Below are positions 76 to 4,801 of a stretch of DNA of 48,702 bases, piece by piece; position 1 is the stretch's first letter, and each line of letters starts with the position of its first letter. The translations under genes and the position numbers were made by a program. The stretch lies in assembly GCA_020403045.1 (NCBI GenBank), contig JADBYK010000091.1, forward strand, positions 1 through 48,702, in the 5' to 3' direction. Source of the stretch: Cytophagales bacterium (GTDB lineage: Bacteria > Bacteroidota > Bacteroidia > Cytophagales > Cyclobacteriaceae). The notes beneath the pieces were generated by a model. That model did not search any database and had not been told where the DNA came from. It was given only the letters and a program-made list of their open reading frames with translations.

Positions 76-1683
76 TTAAGAGACAGTGATGTGAGGGGCG
101 GAAAATGGAGTGCGGAAAAATGGTGATGCCATAATCGATTTAACGAAGCACAGGAAAGGCGATGAAAATGTGGCTGTAGTTTCCCCCAACAGTTCCATTT
201 GCTTTATCATGGTAATCACTTTTGGAGATTCAAAACGCAAATACTTTTTCAAGTTGTATGCTAGTGCAGCCATGATCACATGTTTGTTGGCTTGACGTAT
301 GCCTCGTGTGTTCACACGCTTCATGTTCATAAAGTTAAGTAAGGTACCCAAGACAGGTTCAACTGTTTTGCTACGGATGCGACCCATTTGTTTGGCATAG
401 GGTGTTTGCATTTTTTTATGCATAACATCGTAGAGTGGTTTATGGATGCTGTCCTCTATCTTTTTAAACTTGGTGCTCTTGCCGCAACAGGCCACGCGCA
501 GCGGACAATCTTTGCAAACCGATTCGCTGCTCCGATATGTTTTTTTGTGATAACCTTTGCGATCTGATCTTTCGCCTTTGCAGGGCAGTATTGCTTTTTT
601 CCCACGCTGGCATTCATACTGATCTTTCTCTTGATTGTAGATAAATCCTTCGCGATGCGCTATGTATTGCCCAAAGTTGGGGATGTAGGCATCCACATTT
701 TTTTCCTTCAGGTACTTTAATACCTCACCACTAGAGTAGCCGGTGTCGGCTGTGATTTCTTGTAGTGCGATATTATTGTCAGCTAGATTTTCTTGTGTAA
801 GATCAAGAATATTGGCCATACATTGCGAGTCCCTTTTGTCAGCAAAATCGGCACATGCCCCTGTGATGACATGGTGGGCATCATCCACGGCCACTTGCCC
901 AAAGTAATTCAGCTGCCGTGCCTTTCCAGGCTTTACAGATATGCGCGCATCAGGGTCAGTGGGGGAATGGTGGGTGTAGTTGCTCAAAAACTTGGGGCGT
1001 ATCAAGTTACCTTGTTCATCTACTTTTTTGGAGTTGGTGTTACAGGGCTGGTCTTGATAGGCTTCTGCCTTCCAGGCATGATGCTGATCTACTTGCTTTT
1101 TCTTTTCTGTGGTAACGGTGCTTTTCGCTTTGTCTTCATGCATTATTTTCTCTTCGCTGCCTTCGTTGAGTTCATCGGCATAAGCTTGGGCATCGTCTGT
1201 GATTTCCTTTTCAATAAGGGAGTCCAAGCTGGCATTGGCTTTGATGAAGGCACTGTCGATTGCTTGCCTCTTGCCACGCACCATTCCTTTGTCAACACAG
1301 AGGCTGAGGATCTTTTTGAACAAGGTGATAAATACTTCTTCTCCATAGAGTTGGCGTGTTCGGCTGATGGTGCTGAACCATGGCAGTTCCTCATCAATAT
1401 CGTAACGGAGGAACAAGCGCACGTCCAAACAGTTGGAGCAGTAGCGCAGCAACTGGCGGTCGCTATTGATGTTGTTGAAATATCCCACCAAGATAATTTT
1501 GAAGAACACTACTGGGTCTATACTTTCATTTCCCTCTGAGCCATAGTACTTACTAGTGGCTTTGTAGAGAAAATGGAGGTTAAGGGCAGCCTCTAGTTTT
1601 CTGTAAAAATTGTCTTGAGGAACAAGCATGTCCAGATGAACCTGGTACATGATTTTTGGTGAGAGGTCTTTTCGTCCTTGCAT
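76..1683 (-). CDS. IS1182-family DDE transposase
   Basis: This 535-residue protein catalyses transposition of the IS. It has an N-terminal DUF772-like domain (about residues 50-130) and a DDE catalytic core: Asp143 in AIDSAFIKANAS, Asp313 in TADTGYSSG and Glu442 in RSKTVEPVLG. A cysteine-rich insert (SVCKDCPLRVACCGK, about 389-402) lies before the last catalytic residue and may bind zinc, as in relatives. The frame stays open up to an ATG at 1737, but that start would translate the terminal repeat, so the internal ATG at 1683 (MQGRKDLSPK) is preferred. No frameshift or stop is visible, so the enzyme may be active. Family assignment rests on domain order and the DDE spacing. Confidence 0.9.
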   Translation of the reverse strand: MQGRKDLSPKIMYQVHLDMLVPQDNFYRKLEAALNLHFLYKATSKYYGSEGNESIDPVVFFKIILVGYFNNINSDRQLLRYCSNCLDVRLFLRYDIDEELPWFSTISRTRQLYGEEVFITLFKKILSLCVDKGMVRGKRQAIDSAFIKANASLDSLIEKEITDDAQAYADELNEGSEEKIMHEDKAKSTVTTEKKKQVDQHHAWKAEAYQDQPCNTNSKKVDEQGNLIRPKFLSNYTHHSPTDPDARISVKPGKARQLNYFGQVAVDDAHHVITGACADFADKRDSQCMANILDLTQENLADNNIALQEITADTGYSSGEVLKYLKEKNVDAYIPNFGQYIAHREGFIYNQEKDQYECQRGKKAILPCKGERSDRKGYHKKTYRSSESVCKDCPLRVACCGKSTKFKKIEDSIHKPLYDVMHKKMQTPYAKQMGRIRSKTVEPVLGTLLNFMNMKRVNTRGIRQANKHVIMAALAYNLKKYLRFESPKVITMIKQMELLGETTATFSSPFLCFVKSIMASPFFRTPFSAPHITVS

Positions 1684-1717
1684 GGTGCAAAGATAATTTC
1701 CGTTAGTATATTTATAA

Positions 1718-1737
1718 AGTAGTTGTGCAACAGGCAC
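1718..1737 (-). repeat. Right terminal inverted repeat of the IS1182 element
   Basis: Read on the minus strand the end is GTGCCTGTTGCACAACTACT, matching the left end at 15 of 20 positions. The exact outer base is uncertain by a few positions, because GGCAC at the border could also belong to the adjoining attC-like site. Confidence 0.7.
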
Positions 1738-1859
1738 AATGTATTTGCGTCAAGCGGGGTTGACGCGTAATCCAACGTTTTCGTATCTTTAATACGTTCG
1801 TTGTCGGGGACAAAGCGTGGCTTCGGAAGCCCCGCTCGAACGCAAATACTCACGCTGTG
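1738..1859 (+). other. attC-like integron recombination site A (5' foot beside the IS)
   Basis: Bases 1744-1859 align without gaps to 3687-3802 with 7 differences in 116 positions. The site folds as a long imperfect hairpin: TTTGCGTCAAGCGGGG near 1744 pairs with CCCCGCTCGAACGCAAA near 1830-1846, with one unpaired base, as in integron attC sites. The 3' core reads GCTGTGTGCC (1854-1863), a one-base variant of the expected GTT core. The cassette it belonged to is gone, replaced by the IS. The 5' simple site is degenerate (GGCACAAT), and the IS terminus lies on top of it or next to it. Confidence 0.75.
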
Positions 1860-2186
1860 TGCCAGGCGCTAAAAAGTCCCGCGAACAGTGACGACACAGA
1901 CGACAACGTTTGGTTCACGCAGAGAACCGGACGAAATTTAGAAATATCGGGGCTAAGAAAATTTCTAAAGTGTTACGCGGACAACTCGGTGCCGCTGGAC
2001 GAGTTTTCGTTCCGCAGAGAGTTGGACGACTTTGACCGAGCCGTTAACGTAGAATTTGACTGGACTTCGAGAGCAAATTCATCTACTTGGATTCGAACGC
2101 GTCAACAAAACCTTACGGACGACTTGAGACAAACAGTAAACAAAAATGTTACGATTGCGCGCACGGGCATGCAACAAAAGGCATAA
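1857..2186 (+). CDS. Unrecognised cassette ORF (doubtful)
   Basis: An open frame of up to 109 residues fills the first visible cassette. It has no in-frame ATG near its start: only a GTG at 1857, inside the attC core, and later GTG or TTG codons. The product is hydrophilic and charged, without signal peptide or membrane segment, and no family is recognised. Its TAA (2184-2186) lies just past the R''-like box GGCATGCAAC (2166-2175), which is where cassette genes usually end. It could be a decayed gene. The position and orientation fit cassette cargo, but the start and function are unknown. Confidence 0.3.
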   Translation: MCQALKSPANSDDTDDNVWFTQRTGRNLEISGLRKFLKCYADNSVPLDEFSFRRELDDFDRAVNVEFDWTSRANSSTWIRTRQQNLTDDLRQTVNKNVTIARTGMQQKA

Positions 2187-2297
2187 TCGATGTCGGGGTG
2201 ACGTGTAGCTCAAAGTTTCTACCTTCGTTCAACGTTTGGTTTTGGGGGCAGGACGCGGCTTCGAAAGCGCACCACTGAAGAAACACAAACGTTATGC
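2166..2297 (+). other. attC-like integron site B
   Basis: The left box GGCATGCAAC (2166-2175) is complementary at 7 of 10 positions to the start of the same cassette (GCTGTGTGCC at 1854-1863). The right core is GTTATGC (2291-2297). The central part shares long blocks with site C, for example TGACGTGT, CAAAGTTT, CTTCGTT and GCAGGACGC, followed by a CTTCGAAAGCGCACCAC arm. The hairpin is less regular than in site C. Confidence 0.75.
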
Positions 2298-2371
2298 TGC
2301 ATTGCTTTTGAACAATTTGGAGATCTGAAACAAAATACTCATTTTTGACGTCAGTAACGTAAAACGACACT

Positions 2372-2653
2372 ATGATAGTTTCCTTTGGCTCAAAAGAGAC
2401 AAGAAAAATATGGGACGGTGAAAGAATTAAGGGTTTGACGACTGACCTACAGGAAATTACAAGACGAAAACTGAGAATGCTTAATAACTCACAAAATATT
2501 ATCGATCTTCAAGTCCCACCATCGAACAGACTTGAAAAGTTAAAGGGAAATTTAAAGGAATATTATTCCATAAGAGTTAATGACCAATGGAGAATAATAT
2601 TTAAGTGGGACAAGGGGAATGCCACGGACGTAGAGATATTGGACTATCATTAA
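2372..2653 (+). CDS. higB: HigB-type RelE-superfamily toxin
   Basis: This 93-residue protein is a type II toxin, expected to act as a ribosome-dependent mRNA interferase. It shows the HigB killer-protein pattern: an N-terminal beta strand with KIWDGER, then LQEITRRKLRMLNNS, PPSNRLEKLKGNLKEYYSIRVNDQWRI and FKWDKGNATDVEILDYH at the end. The length is normal for HigB. The toxin gene precedes the antitoxin gene, the usual order for hig loci. The ATG lies 78 bases after the cassette border, so a cassette-borne promoter probably lies in 2300-2371. No damage is visible. Confidence 0.9.
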   Translation: MIVSFGSKETRKIWDGERIKGLTTDLQEITRRKLRMLNNSQNIIDLQVPPSNRLEKLKGNLKEYYSIRVNDQWRIIFKWDKGNATDVEILDYH

Positions 2654-2665
2654 TAAAATATAAAG

Positions 2666-2965
2666 ATGAAAAAATTAAAAAATATACATCCGGGTGAAAT
2701 CCTACAAGAAGAATTTTTAGTACCCTTGGGACTAAGCGCCTATAAGTTGTCGAAAGACGTTGGGATACCTCAGACAAGAGTTTCAGAAATTATTAAAGGT
2801 AATAGGAGAATAACAGCCGACACTGCATTAAGACTTTCAAAATACTTTGGTAATTCTGCGAAGTTTTGGCTTGGCCTTCAGGACGACTTTGAAATTGAAG
2901 AAGAAGAGCAACTTAAATTTAAAGAGTTGAACTTAATAGAGCACTATCAAAGCAACGCAGCATAA
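2666..2965 (+). CDS. higA: HigA-type antitoxin with helix-turn-helix
   Basis: This 99-residue XRE-family protein is expected to bind and neutralise HigB and to repress the operon. It begins with the typical HPGEIL motif, followed by a Cro-type helix-turn-helix (about residues 25-60: SAYKLSKDVGIPQTRVSEIIKGNRRI) and the HigA/VapI hallmark AKFWLGLQDDFEIE. The tail is acidic. The gene begins 12 bases after the higB stop, so the pair is co-transcribed. Its stop codon TAA (2963-2965) lies inside the cassette R'' box, so gene and recombination site overlap. Confidence 0.92.
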   Translation: MKKLKNIHPGEILQEEFLVPLGLSAYKLSKDVGIPQTRVSEIIKGNRRITADTALRLSKYFGNSAKFWLGLQDDFEIEEEEQLKFKELNLIEHYQSNAA

Positions 2966-3088
2966 CAGCATGTGTCTGCTATGGTGCGGTGACGTGTTGC
3001 CCAAAGTTTATATCTTCGTTCCACGTATGGTTTCGGGGACAGGACGCAGCTTCGGAAGCGCACCACAGCAGAAACACACACGTTGGCG
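2960..3088 (+). other. attC-like integron site C (best conserved)
   Basis: The site runs from R'' GCATAAC (2960-2966) to R' GTTGGCG (3082-3088), about 129 bases. The arms form an imperfect hairpin: CTGCTATGGTGCG (2976-2988) matches the reverse complement of CGCACCACAGCAG (3059-3071) at 12 of 13 positions. The outer parts AACAGCATGTGT and ACACACACGTT also pair partly. The loop half contains CTTCGTTCCACG and the block TTTCGGGGACAGGACGC shared with the other sites. Confidence 0.85.
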
Positions 3089-3158
3089 GTCAGGCAAGAT
3101 GACAACTAGACACCAAACTAAACATGCTATAAAACGAATCAGGTGTAACATGCAGAAC

Positions 3159-3166
3159 TAAATTTG
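3159..3166 (+). promoter_or_regulatory. Candidate -7 promoter box in a cassette
   Basis: TAAATTTG fits the Bacteroidota -7 consensus TAnnTTTG exactly. It ends 12 bases before the GTG start of the SRPBCC-like gene, so the transcript would be leaderless or nearly so. No clear -33 TTG box is seen. Confidence 0.45.
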
Positions 3167-3177
3167 TAGAACAAAAA

Positions 3178-3681
3178 GTGGAATACAAGATTAAGGTAAC
3201 AACAACATATAAGTGTTCATTAGAACGTGCCTTTAAGACTCCGATGCTTTGTGACCTTTCTAAAGTTCACACGGGGTTTGGTTTAATGCCTAAAGTGACA
3301 CACTGTAGCGAAGATGAAAATTGGGGTCAAGTTGGGTCAAAGAAAAAAATATACGCTGCAAAATCGTTAACACAAAAAGGCGGGTTTGTCTCGGTTGACC
3401 ATATACTTGAACGAATAGAAAACGATTACTGGAAAATTCAGGTTGACGACTTTCAATCCTGGATGTTAGGTTTCTATAAATTTGTTGGAGAGTGGAAAAC
3501 GACTAAAATCGCAACGGACAATGTTTTAGTTGAATACACATATACATTACACTCGGACAATCTGATGTTTTATCCTTTAAATTGGTTATTTGCAAAGGCT
3601 TTTTGGAGAATGTATATGAAAAGAGTGTTAGAAAATGTTAAACAAATCGCATACGACAAGGAACCGTACAAATATGAATAG
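3178..3681 (+). CDS. SRPBCC-like (START/Bet v 1-fold) cassette protein
   Basis: This 167-residue soluble protein resembles the SRPBCC/polyketide-cyclase superfamily. It starts with an N-terminal strand (EYKIKVTTTYKCSLERAFKTPM), typical of the first strand-helix unit. HILERIENDYWKIQVDDFQSWM and the alternating WKTTKIATDNVLVEYTYTLHS strands follow, and a long C-terminal helix (ENVKQIAYDK) closes it. Such proteins bind hydrophobic ligands, but the substrate here is unknown. The start is GTG at 3178, the only start close to the promoter-like box. The TAG stop (3679-3681) lies where the R'' box of site D should be, as usual for cassette genes. It is more A+T rich than the core genes. Confidence 0.7.
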   Translation: MEYKIKVTTTYKCSLERAFKTPMLCDLSKVHTGFGLMPKVTHCSEDENWGQVGSKKKIYAAKSLTQKGGFVSVDHILERIENDYWKIQVDDFQSWMLGFYKFVGEWKTTKIATDNVLVEYTYTLHSDNLMFYPLNWLFAKAFWRMYMKRVLENVKQIAYDKEPYKYE

Positions 3682-3803
3682 TGATCTTTGCGTCAAGCGG
3701 GGTTGACGCGTAATCCAACGTTTTCGTATCTTTAATGCGTTCGGTGTCGGGGACACCGCGCGGCTTCGGAAGCCCCGCTCGAACGCAAATACTTACGTTG
3801 TGG
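3679..3803 (+). other. attC-like integron site D
   Basis: This is almost the same as site A: 109 of 116 positions identical over 3687-3802. The arm TTTGCGTCAAGCGGGG (3687-3702) pairs with CCCCGCTCGAACGCAAA (3773-3789) with one mismatch and one extra base, like the extrahelical bases of attC stems. The right core is GTTGTGG (3797-3803). The left simple site is not recognisable and does not match the cassette start GTTGGCG at 3082, so this cassette end has decayed or was exchanged. Confidence 0.75.
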
Positions 3804-3822
3804 GTAATAGCATCGGACAAAT

Positions 3823-4350
3823 ATGAGACTTCTGATAATATGTTTTTCAATATTGACCAATCTATCATTGGGACAGATTAACGTGTTGACTGACTGTTTA
3901 AATAGTCAGACTGACCAGGTTAAGTGTTTAAACTTCGGACAAATAGGATTTGATACAGACGACTTGACATTCAAGAGAATATCTAAACGTGTTGAAAGAA
4001 TTACAGACATTCATGATACATTATCTTTAGCTTACATCTTACCAACTTACAAAAGAAAAATTACTAAAGAATTCAAATTATTTAAGACCTCGTTTTTAGG
4101 AGTAACTAAAGTAAACGATGTTGTACAATCTTTAGAATTATATGGTTGTGTAAAAGTGGACAATTTGGACTTCTATGGAATTAATTTAGGTTCAAAAGTT
4201 GAAGACTTGATAAGGAGGTTCGGACAACCCGAAAAGATAAAACCGTTTGACCATTTAAAAGGTGAAATTTGGGAATATCCAGACAAGAGGTATTCATTTG
4301 TAGTAAAGAGTGACATTGTGGTAATTATTAAATTGAACAGAGCGGGTTAA
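3823..4350 (+). CDS. Small exported cassette protein of unknown function
   Basis: The product has 175 residues with a Sec signal peptide at its N-terminus (MRLLIICFSILTNLSLGQ). The C-terminal part contains GINLGSKVEDLIRRFGQPEK followed by a WEYPDKRYSFVV strand pair. This resembles the short repeat of SmpA/BamE-like and related envelope domains (Gly-x-x-x-x-Glu-hydrophobic...Gly-x-Pro), but the match is too short for a family call. The ATG lies 26 bases from the cassette border at 3797. The TAA (4348-4350) immediately precedes the R'' box (4351-4366), which mirrors the cassette start at 14 of 16 positions. An envelope or periplasmic location is inferred. Confidence 0.7.
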   Translation: MRLLIICFSILTNLSLGQINVLTDCLNSQTDQVKCLNFGQIGFDTDDLTFKRISKRVERITDIHDTLSLAYILPTYKRKITKEFKLFKTSFLGVTKVNDVVQSLELYGCVKVDNLDFYGINLGSKVEDLIRRFGQPEKIKPFDHLKGEIWEYPDKRYSFVVKSDIVVIIKLNRAG

Positions 4351-4443
4351 TGCTACTGCCCACAACAAAATGCTTCTGCAATAGCGCGTTGACGTGTAAG
4401 CTATAAGTGTTATCTTCGTTCCACGTTTGGTGTCGGGGACAGG
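4351..4443 (+). other. attC-like integron site E, truncated
   Basis: The left box TGCTACTGCCCACAAC (4351-4366) matches the reverse complement of the cassette start (3797-3812) at 14 of 16 positions. The left arm and loop follow the site B/C pattern up to GGGGACAGG (4435-4443). There the similarity stops, and the whole right arm and GTT core are missing. The array was cut here and joined to unrelated coding DNA. Confidence 0.75.
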
Positions 4444-4801
4444 CGGTTACATTGATGCTTGGGGACGTGGAACTTTAAAAATTATAACAGCGTGCAGAGA
4501 GGCCGAACTTCCAGAACCAGAAATGAAGGAAGAATTTGGAGGAGTGATGATAACGCTTTTCAAAGACCGGTTTACAGAGCAGCAGTTAAGGAAAATGGGG
4601 TTGAATGAACGACAGGTGAAAGCAGTATTGTATGTAGTTGAAAATAGAAATATTACGAATACCAAGTATCAGGAACTATTTTCAGTTTCAAAACCAACAG
4701 CAACTCGGGATTTAAGTGAATTATCCGATGAAAAGTTTAGAGTGTTTGAAAAAAGGGGAGTTACCGGAGCAGGAACTGCCTACTTTTTAATGGGCTCATA
4801 A
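4427..4801 (+). pseudogene. C-terminal fragment of an AlbA/Schlafen-type ATP-binding regulator
   Basis: From GYIDAWGRGTLKII onward (4444 on) the frame encodes the end of the COG2865-like family of putative transcriptional regulators. This segment usually follows an N-terminal AlbA_2 domain and precedes a winged-helix domain, seen here as LNERQVKAVLYVVENRNITNTKYQELFSV and SKPTATRDLSEL. The usual N-terminal ~300 residues are absent, replaced by the attC remnant. The only start is a TTG at 4427 inside that remnant. It is most likely a dead gene remnant. Translation of the isolated winged helix is possible but unsupported. Confidence 0.75.

Follow-up and report, generated by a model that had tools for sequence, protein, structure and literature searches.

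The 48,702-nucleotide contig JADBYK010000091.1 of a Cytophagales bacterium (assembly GCA_020403045.1), called the window here at its full length, carries near its left end an array of small gene cassettes. The window is contig C116 of an assembly of 4.02 Mb in 124 contigs that is 98.96% complete. An initial annotation, made from the sequence alone, had described an integron cassette array without an integrase, in which five related hairpin sites alternate with small plus-strand open reading frames (ORFs). In our base-by-base reading the array spans 1724-4443 and consists of four plus-strand cassettes set apart by five related hairpin sites. All five sites, A to E, were located at 55.7 to 140.3 bits with R1, a covariance model built from 11 sites of this genome, which include A to D and exclude E.

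76..1737, minus strand: transposase of 553 amino acids (DUF772 and DDE_Tnp_1_6), which we take to be of the IS1182 family; left boundary of the array
1724..1860, plus strand: site A, with R'' TGTGCAAC at 1724-1731 and R' at 1854-1860; R1 110.0 bits; fold z -4.2
1854..2175, plus strand: body of cassette 1, start GCTGTGTGCCA, with GCT in place of the GTT of the others; base 11 is A
1857-2186, plus strand: ORF of cassette 1, 109 amino acids; no Pfam family over the cut-off
2168..2297, plus strand: site B; R1 118.5 bits; fold z -0.9; no match of the left arm to the right arm
2291..2966, plus strand: body of cassette 2 (higBA), start GTTATGCTGCA, end AACGCAGCATAAC; full strict border signature, with a mismatched A at base 11
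2372..2653, plus strand: HigB-like toxin of a bacterial type II toxin-antitoxin pair (PF05015, E 2.6e-23)
2666..2965, plus strand: HigA-type antitoxin (HTH_3, E 8.1e-9), its stop codon within R'' of site C
2959..3088, plus strand: site C, the best formed; R1 140.3 bits; fold z -2.0
3082..3679, plus strand: body of cassette 3, start GTTGGCGGTCA; base 11 is A; 3' border unrecognisable
3178..3681, plus strand: ORF of cassette 3, 167 amino acids; weak Polyketide_cyc2 match, 21.7 bits, under the cut-off of 27.4
3671..3803, plus strand: site D; R1 113.3 bits; fold z -5.6
3797..4366, plus strand: body of cassette 4, start GTTGTGGGTAA, end CTGCCCACAAC; 15 of 17 bases complementary; base-11 A mismatched
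3823..4350, plus strand: ORF of cassette 4, 175 amino acids; signal-like N terminus (by eye); no Pfam match
4358..4443, plus strand: site E, truncated near 4443, left half only; R1 55.7 bits; fold z +1.2
4427..4801, plus strand: fragment joined to site E; HATPase_c_4 match (RecG C-terminal-like), 24.1 bits, under the cut-off of 26

The main ORFs of all four cassettes lie on the plus strand. The self-complementary borders reported in the initial annotation for two cassettes were confirmed: the start and end of the higBA cassette are complementary at 17 of 18 bases, which none of 5,000 shuffles equalled, and those of the exported-protein cassette (cassette 4) at 15 of 17, which two of 5,000 equalled. 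The same test found no border match in cassettes 1 and 3; a decayed match to its own border is left in cassette 1 (6 of the first 9 bases), and cassette 3 has 3 of 9. Base 11 is A in all four cassettes. Folded as bottom-strand single-stranded DNA, the sites gave a mixed result for the predicted hairpins. Sites A and D are far below the shuffle mean and site C moderately so, while B and E do not stand out from the shuffles. The L arm of site C pairs as GTGTCTGCT-A-TGGTGCG / CGCACCA-C-AGCAGaaACAC. No Rfam family matched the window at gathering thresholds. The start of the RecG-like fragment (4442-4470) recurs in the same genome at C110:48621-48649. Bounded by the transposase and the truncated fifth site, the array looks like a decaying remnant.

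The array has no integrase in its own assembly, as had been proposed. A DNA search together with R1 detected 16 sites at E <= 0.1 on eight contigs of the genome, the window included, several of them at or near contig ends. No integron integrase over the cut-off of TIGR02249 was found in this genome, and a profile of the integrases described below, which lack the I2 segment, retrieved from it only two Xer-like proteins and weaker, longer phage-type recombinases; the XerD-like protein scored E 8.4e-48 only. At another locus of the genome (L019, G000:C13) a site ends a cassette with a Fic/Doc-like protein and a small upstream ORF, both named by eye, which is perhaps a second toxin-antitoxin cassette.

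Borders, hairpins and polarity of the sites

Sites of this family were found by R1 at E <= 0.001 in 29 of 58 related genomes, with up to 30 per genome. They occur in 24 of the 35 other genomes of the same genus, in line with the earlier suggestion that the window holds part of a lineage-specific integron. An exact match to the site core is present in 34 records, which are metagenome-assembled genomes (MAGs) of Cytophagales, Cyclobacteriaceae and Flammeovirgaceae plus two Pontibacter isolates.

The cassette borders were analyzed on the 136 sites of set A4 (leaving out L122 and L126, which repeat L094 and L095), a subset of the R1 matches, and the window. Ten of the 151 cassettes lacked GTT or AAC at the expected place. 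Among the other 141, the start matches the cassette's own end at 8 or more of 9 bases in 134, compared with 10.7% of foreign pairs, and the seven that failed were removed before base 11 was counted. With a score of at least 10 as the measure, 49 of 65 cassettes from the array loci and the window match their own end, against 32 of 4,160 foreign pairs. All 134 cassettes have A at base 11, in no case complementary, and bases 12 to 16 are complementary again (121, 120, 105, 111, and 94 of 134). The base facing this A is C in 109 of the 134, and because C stands opposite A, the other strand would carry a T-G wobble.

Canonical cassettes are different. In 60 of them the start and end match in 57, 57, 50, and 41 cases at bases 8 to 11 and in 23 and 19 at bases 12 and 13; base 11 is mixed, and the base-11 A pattern is absent. 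The R arm thus ends at about base 11 there, whereas here it has an invariant mismatched A and matches to about base 16. The 60 cassettes come from the 10 of 33 canonical loci that have a chain of four or more; they were selected by an exact 7-base match, so that positions 1 to 7 match by construction, and their strand is unassigned. A narrow detection rule had given such a chain in 1 of 14 loci, and a looser site spacing was then used. The strict border signature was found in 71 cassettes of 17 regions with an I2-less integrase, all on the array strand and none in the shuffles; in 33 canonical regions (591 kb) it was found in none, with one in their shuffles. In 80 viral loci it was found 56 times, against once in shuffled sequence.

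The longest ORF lies on the site strand in 129 of the 141 cassettes (median body, 651 bases; median longest ORF, 175 amino acids). Homologous cassette bodies recur in 26 pairs among the 141, several across different MAGs.

Across the 136 sites, 15 of the 16 pairs of the L arm show changes on both sides, including one that is almost never paired, and 85.4% of the cells are paired. Covariation over the whole structure is 0.434, compared with 0.134 for shuffled and at most 0.075 for slid alignments. The L arm also has a mismatched A, present in 133 of 133 sites and facing C (80) or G (52), plus one A and one T. Of 125 circle junctions that were modelled, all fold better than the same sites within arrays, because only in the circle do both halves of the R arm come from one cassette.

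About 50 bases inside each site, A to E included, form a core that is far more conserved than pairing needs. A promoter-like motif, TG-N17-24-TAnnTT, points into the next cassette in 121 of 129 sites of the relatives (1 of 129 on the reverse strand; shuffled mean, 9.1), and the sites might also act as promoters. The strict promoter consensus of Bacteroidota is TTG-N17-23-TAnnTT[TC]G. Because this was found in only 8 of 129 sites (shuffled mean, 1.75; maximum, 4), an embedded promoter remains a weak idea.

For comparison with canonical attC sites we used R2, a proxy covariance model of 27 such sites, which as a positive control detected 47 places in nine canonical loci outside its training set. 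R2 had no match in the window and detected no site in 31 named loci rich in R1 sites; R1 in turn had no match in 14 canonical loci. On the window plus 14 loci with I2-less integrases, R2 gave seven weak matches, six in arrays and opposite to the site strand and one beside an integrase. On 24 further loci, 30 of 30 matches were opposite to the array strand, the overlap of match and site not having been checked singly and the array strand of L228 having been assigned by eye. The neighbors of the crossover point the same way: G follows AAC in 27 of 27 canonical sites, and AC precedes GTT in 120 of 128 of the sites studied here. To judge from these sequences, the sites resemble canonical attC read backwards. 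Read that way, the mismatched As lie on the equivalent of the canonical substrate strand; canonical integrons use the bottom strand, as the available text of PMC9668308 states.

Integrases without the I2 segment

No protein over the cut-off of TIGR02249, the family of integron integrases, was found in the 58 relatives, the window's own genome included. Many relatives have a gene that matches TIGR02249 in two pieces, the N-terminal one at up to 148 bits, with profile positions of about 180 to 238 skipped. By eye, at least 24 of the 35 same-genus genomes have a gene of this type. Across the I2 segment, 71 to 72 residues are present in 29 of 29 of these integrases and 113 in 29 canonical IntI; the count covers same-genus and same-order genomes, with L002, L105, L109, and L112 excluded and one of 30 canonical loci without a protein. 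The best PDB match of the I2-less integrase is IntI4 (E 1.2e-43), and its best NCBIfam match is TIGR02249 itself at 220.7 bits, under the cut-off of 265. In two trees of 61 and 52 sequences, a subset of those found, the I2-less group and IntI are neighboring clades apart from Xer. XerC, XerD, and XerA have the same two-domain fold without I2, and in a structure comparison of a viral I2-less integrase, XerA (5hxy) and XerH (5jjv) rank beside IntI4 (2a3v); in sequence, the I2-less integrases are nearer to IntI, with Xer as a separate clade.

An extra N-terminal domain is often present. It has a weak match to HARP (PF07443), at 23.7 bits for L080 with a Pfam cut-off of 25, and a profile of 19 such segments had as its top PDB match 4o66, the HARP domain of SMARCAL1, at E 5e-4. 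At E <= 10 the HARP match appeared in 5 of 25 members, and at the stricter E <= 0.05 in 1 of 10. HARP domains bind forked DNA, and the HARP-like domain may have a role in these integrases. A 9-Mb genome (L189, G039:C1:617000-618300) encodes many near-identical I2-less recombinases of about 326 amino acids with SPLD at the end, seemingly transposases related to the IntI/I2-less group.

Sites and integrases adjoin in some of the relatives. Matched up by eye among the matches listed, 13 cases and one fragment have R1 sites, some weak, directly after an I2-less integrase on the same contig and strand. For 14 further integrase genes, the contig breaks off within about 600 bases of the 3' end, as would be expected where repeats interrupt assemblies. 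Class-wide, again by eye and among the matches listed, of the genes no more than 500 bases from a contig start, 20 face it and one faces away. The 3' flank of the integrase gene is where attI and the first cassette would lie. By eye, in most of 15 such flanks the GTT of a first cassette stands a few to about 150 bases past the integrase stop codon, with the matching AAC border often visible downstream; no clear cassette start was seen in the flanks of L089, L111, and L115. The integrase gene is oriented in the direction of the cassettes. A motif scan of 34 named site loci found no integrase.

Of the Bacteroidia sampled, 218 of 396 genomes and 121 of 198 genera have a relative of the integrase at E <= 1e-70. 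For 20 such genes, the 3' flanks (165 kb) contain 14 strict signatures, each on the strand of its gene, and the 5' flanks (238 kb) three, with none in shuffles.

Several distant relatives were also seen. A search of viral sequences with a single integrase query found nothing; the viral loci used here came from an alignment-based search, with 575 relatives among 600 candidates, of which the best 80 were kept. IMG/VR contigs L238, L224, L225, L214, L209, and L258 carry short I2-less integrases together with mini-cassettes of about 200 to 900 bases. In 51 of 85 ORFs, the viral integrases have 66 residues between the motifs; the forms of about 265 amino acids are too short for the HARP-like domain. 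The signature of the viral mini-cassettes is on the strand opposite to the integrase; the cassette ORFs of L238, however they relate to the signature, share the strand of the integrase, and a neighboring gene there matches a phage helicase family. Outside the class, L195 (G228:C1:158000-172000) has an I2-less integrase of 308 amino acids followed by six chained cassettes of about 0.5 to 1.2 kb, four of them with the strict signature. Two complete plasmids, Pontibacter kalidii pls1 (L283, 7665-14099) and Rufibacter tibetensis plasmid 1 (L284, 7386-14586), each carry a related integrase with a run of mostly small ORFs behind it on its strand; these runs are like a plasmid-borne integron but lack the strict border signature. 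On Acinetobacter baylyi plasmid pJAT2044 (L319, 2967-4988), a shortened recombinase with 51% identity to an I2-less integrase (query residues 113-359) is encoded 190 bases upstream of tet(X3) in the same orientation, next to ISVsa3; tet(X3) is not enclosed by a pair of cassette borders.

Interpretation and alternatives

From these sequence features, we consider it very probable that the window holds a decaying mobile cassette array of the integron type, whose hairpins have reversed polarity and whose integrase would have belonged to the I2-less group. We infer the following course of events. One strand of the junction of a circular cassette would fold into a single long hairpin. Its R arm would be made by the two ends of the cassette itself, with 9 to 10 bp, the mismatched A, and a further 6 bp or so; the crossover region between the arms, around A-C-G-T-T, would be short and unpaired; and the L arm would extend to about 19 bp, with the second mismatched A at the matching place. 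The I2-less integrase would bind both arms. On the ORF-sense strand the two As would face C or G, and the other strand would mostly present T-G wobbles, so that the mismatches could mark both strand and direction. The integrase would then join the hairpin to an attachment site immediately downstream of the integrase gene; the newest cassette would thus adjoin that gene, its ORF in the same orientation, and repeated insertion would build the array. In the genome of the window, the integrase would have been lost, and the transposase at the edge, the truncated site, and the mutated borders would be marks of disuse.

The likeness to canonical integrons and CALINs (clusters of attC sites lacking integron integrases) is extensive. 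They share GTT...AAC borders, a 3' hairpin site in each cassette with covarying arms, an integrase beside the first cassette, a toxin-antitoxin cassette, and a cassette start complementary to the cassette's own R'' over about 10 bases, the last in window cassettes 2 and 4 and not in 1 and 3. The differences are the missing additional domain of the integrase, the R arm, the reversed polarity of the sites, and the integrase gene on the cassette strand. An integrase gene in cassette orientation is known from the atypical integrons of Treponema, according to the available part of PMC3607928, where those integrases are treated as IntI; we draw the likeness by gene orientation alone. The array, as read here, works like an integron, yet it is not a proven member by the canonical definition: the integrases of its relatives lack the additional domain, and the canonical attC model finds no site. 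We lean, with less assurance, towards a separate integron lineage of Bacteroidia as the source of this remnant. In it an I2-less sister of IntI, often with a HARP-like N-terminal domain, would recombine folded single strands whose polarity is opposite to that of canonical attC, and would recognize its strand by two mismatched adenines, one per arm.

Several observations weigh against our interpretation. The link of the window array to an I2-less integrase rests on relatives, because its own genome has none, and only one of the four window cassettes passes the strict signature. Co-occurrence within the genus is imperfect: by eye and among the matches listed, 19 genomes have both sites and integrase, five the integrase only, five sites only, and six neither, with at least five genes or fragments unclassed (G019:C146, G026:C33, G033:C14, G035:C54, and G013:C27). 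At class level, strict signatures lie in the 3' flank of only 7 of 20 integrases, seven of these 20 flanks being shorter than 3.5 kb, and the integrases of L196-L199 and of plasmids L282-L284 had none beside them; because strict signatures follow only some members, members of the family need not all be integron integrases. The I2-less clade has support values of 86/65 and 95/87 in the two trees. Folding energy makes the bottom strand more stable in 93 of 125 junctions, while the polarity of the sites points to the top strand.

The initial annotation had read the array as a CALIN, that is, canonical attC cassettes inserted by a canonical IntI that is now lost or acts in trans. The cassette array and the undetected integrase stand, and such clusters are common according to the available text of PMC9668308 and PMC8618304. 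Several sites ended by AAC and GTT less than 4 kb apart are the kind of criterion given for a CALIN in the former, and five lie here within 2.7 kb if they are counted as attC. The mostly single ORF per cassette and the toxin-antitoxin cassette fit this explanation as well, and canonical IntI over the cut-off is present in the phylum, in 107 of 392 genomes, one of them among the listed genomes being of the same class (G094). What did not hold up is the canonical nature of the sites. R2 and R1 do not cross-detect each other's loci, the base-11 pattern is missing from canonical arrays, and none of the 58 relatives encodes an IntI over the cut-off; we therefore regard an ordinary CALIN as unlikely. 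It is very unlikely that another recombinase, either host XerC/XerD or an unlinked phage-type enzyme, moves the cassettes with the adjacent I2-less integrases as mere passengers. The 16 sites in a genome with only Xer-like and longer phage-type recombinases would be explained in this way, as would the same-genus genomes with sites and no detected I2-less integrase. A passenger integrase does not account for a first cassette with its own complementary borders just past the stop codon in most of the 15 flanks, for a layout and strand that repeat across genomes, or for the recurrence of the signature beside I2-less integrases in viral contigs.

We give the least credence to the idea that the hairpins are interspersed repeats, such as repetitive extragenic palindromic elements, miniature inverted-repeat transposable elements, terminators, or promoters, that stand between small genes by chance. 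The high conservation of the core and the frequent promoter-like motif agree with it. A dispersed repeat leaves unexplained that cassette starts match their own end far above the ends of others, and it gives no account of arrays that start at an integrase on one strand.

In the accessible text of PMC7790495, the ability of integron integrases to use folded single-stranded DNA is credited to the innovation of the I2 helix, and intermediates on the path to these enzymes are said to be lacking. The corresponding text of PMC8138268 describes the insertion as essential to the function of integrons and as incompletely conserved within its subgroup. In the open-licence PubMed Central literature we found no account of Bacteroidia arrays with I2-less integrases, and prior work may exist. 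Arrays headed by integrases without I2, at sites with strand marks of their own, make the view of I2 directly testable. If our interpretation is true, the I2 domain would not be required for capturing cassettes on folded DNA, and the lineage would be the natural relative whose absence has hampered work on the origin of integron integrases. It could change the view of how integrons arose, and a large pool of cassettes may escape current tools.

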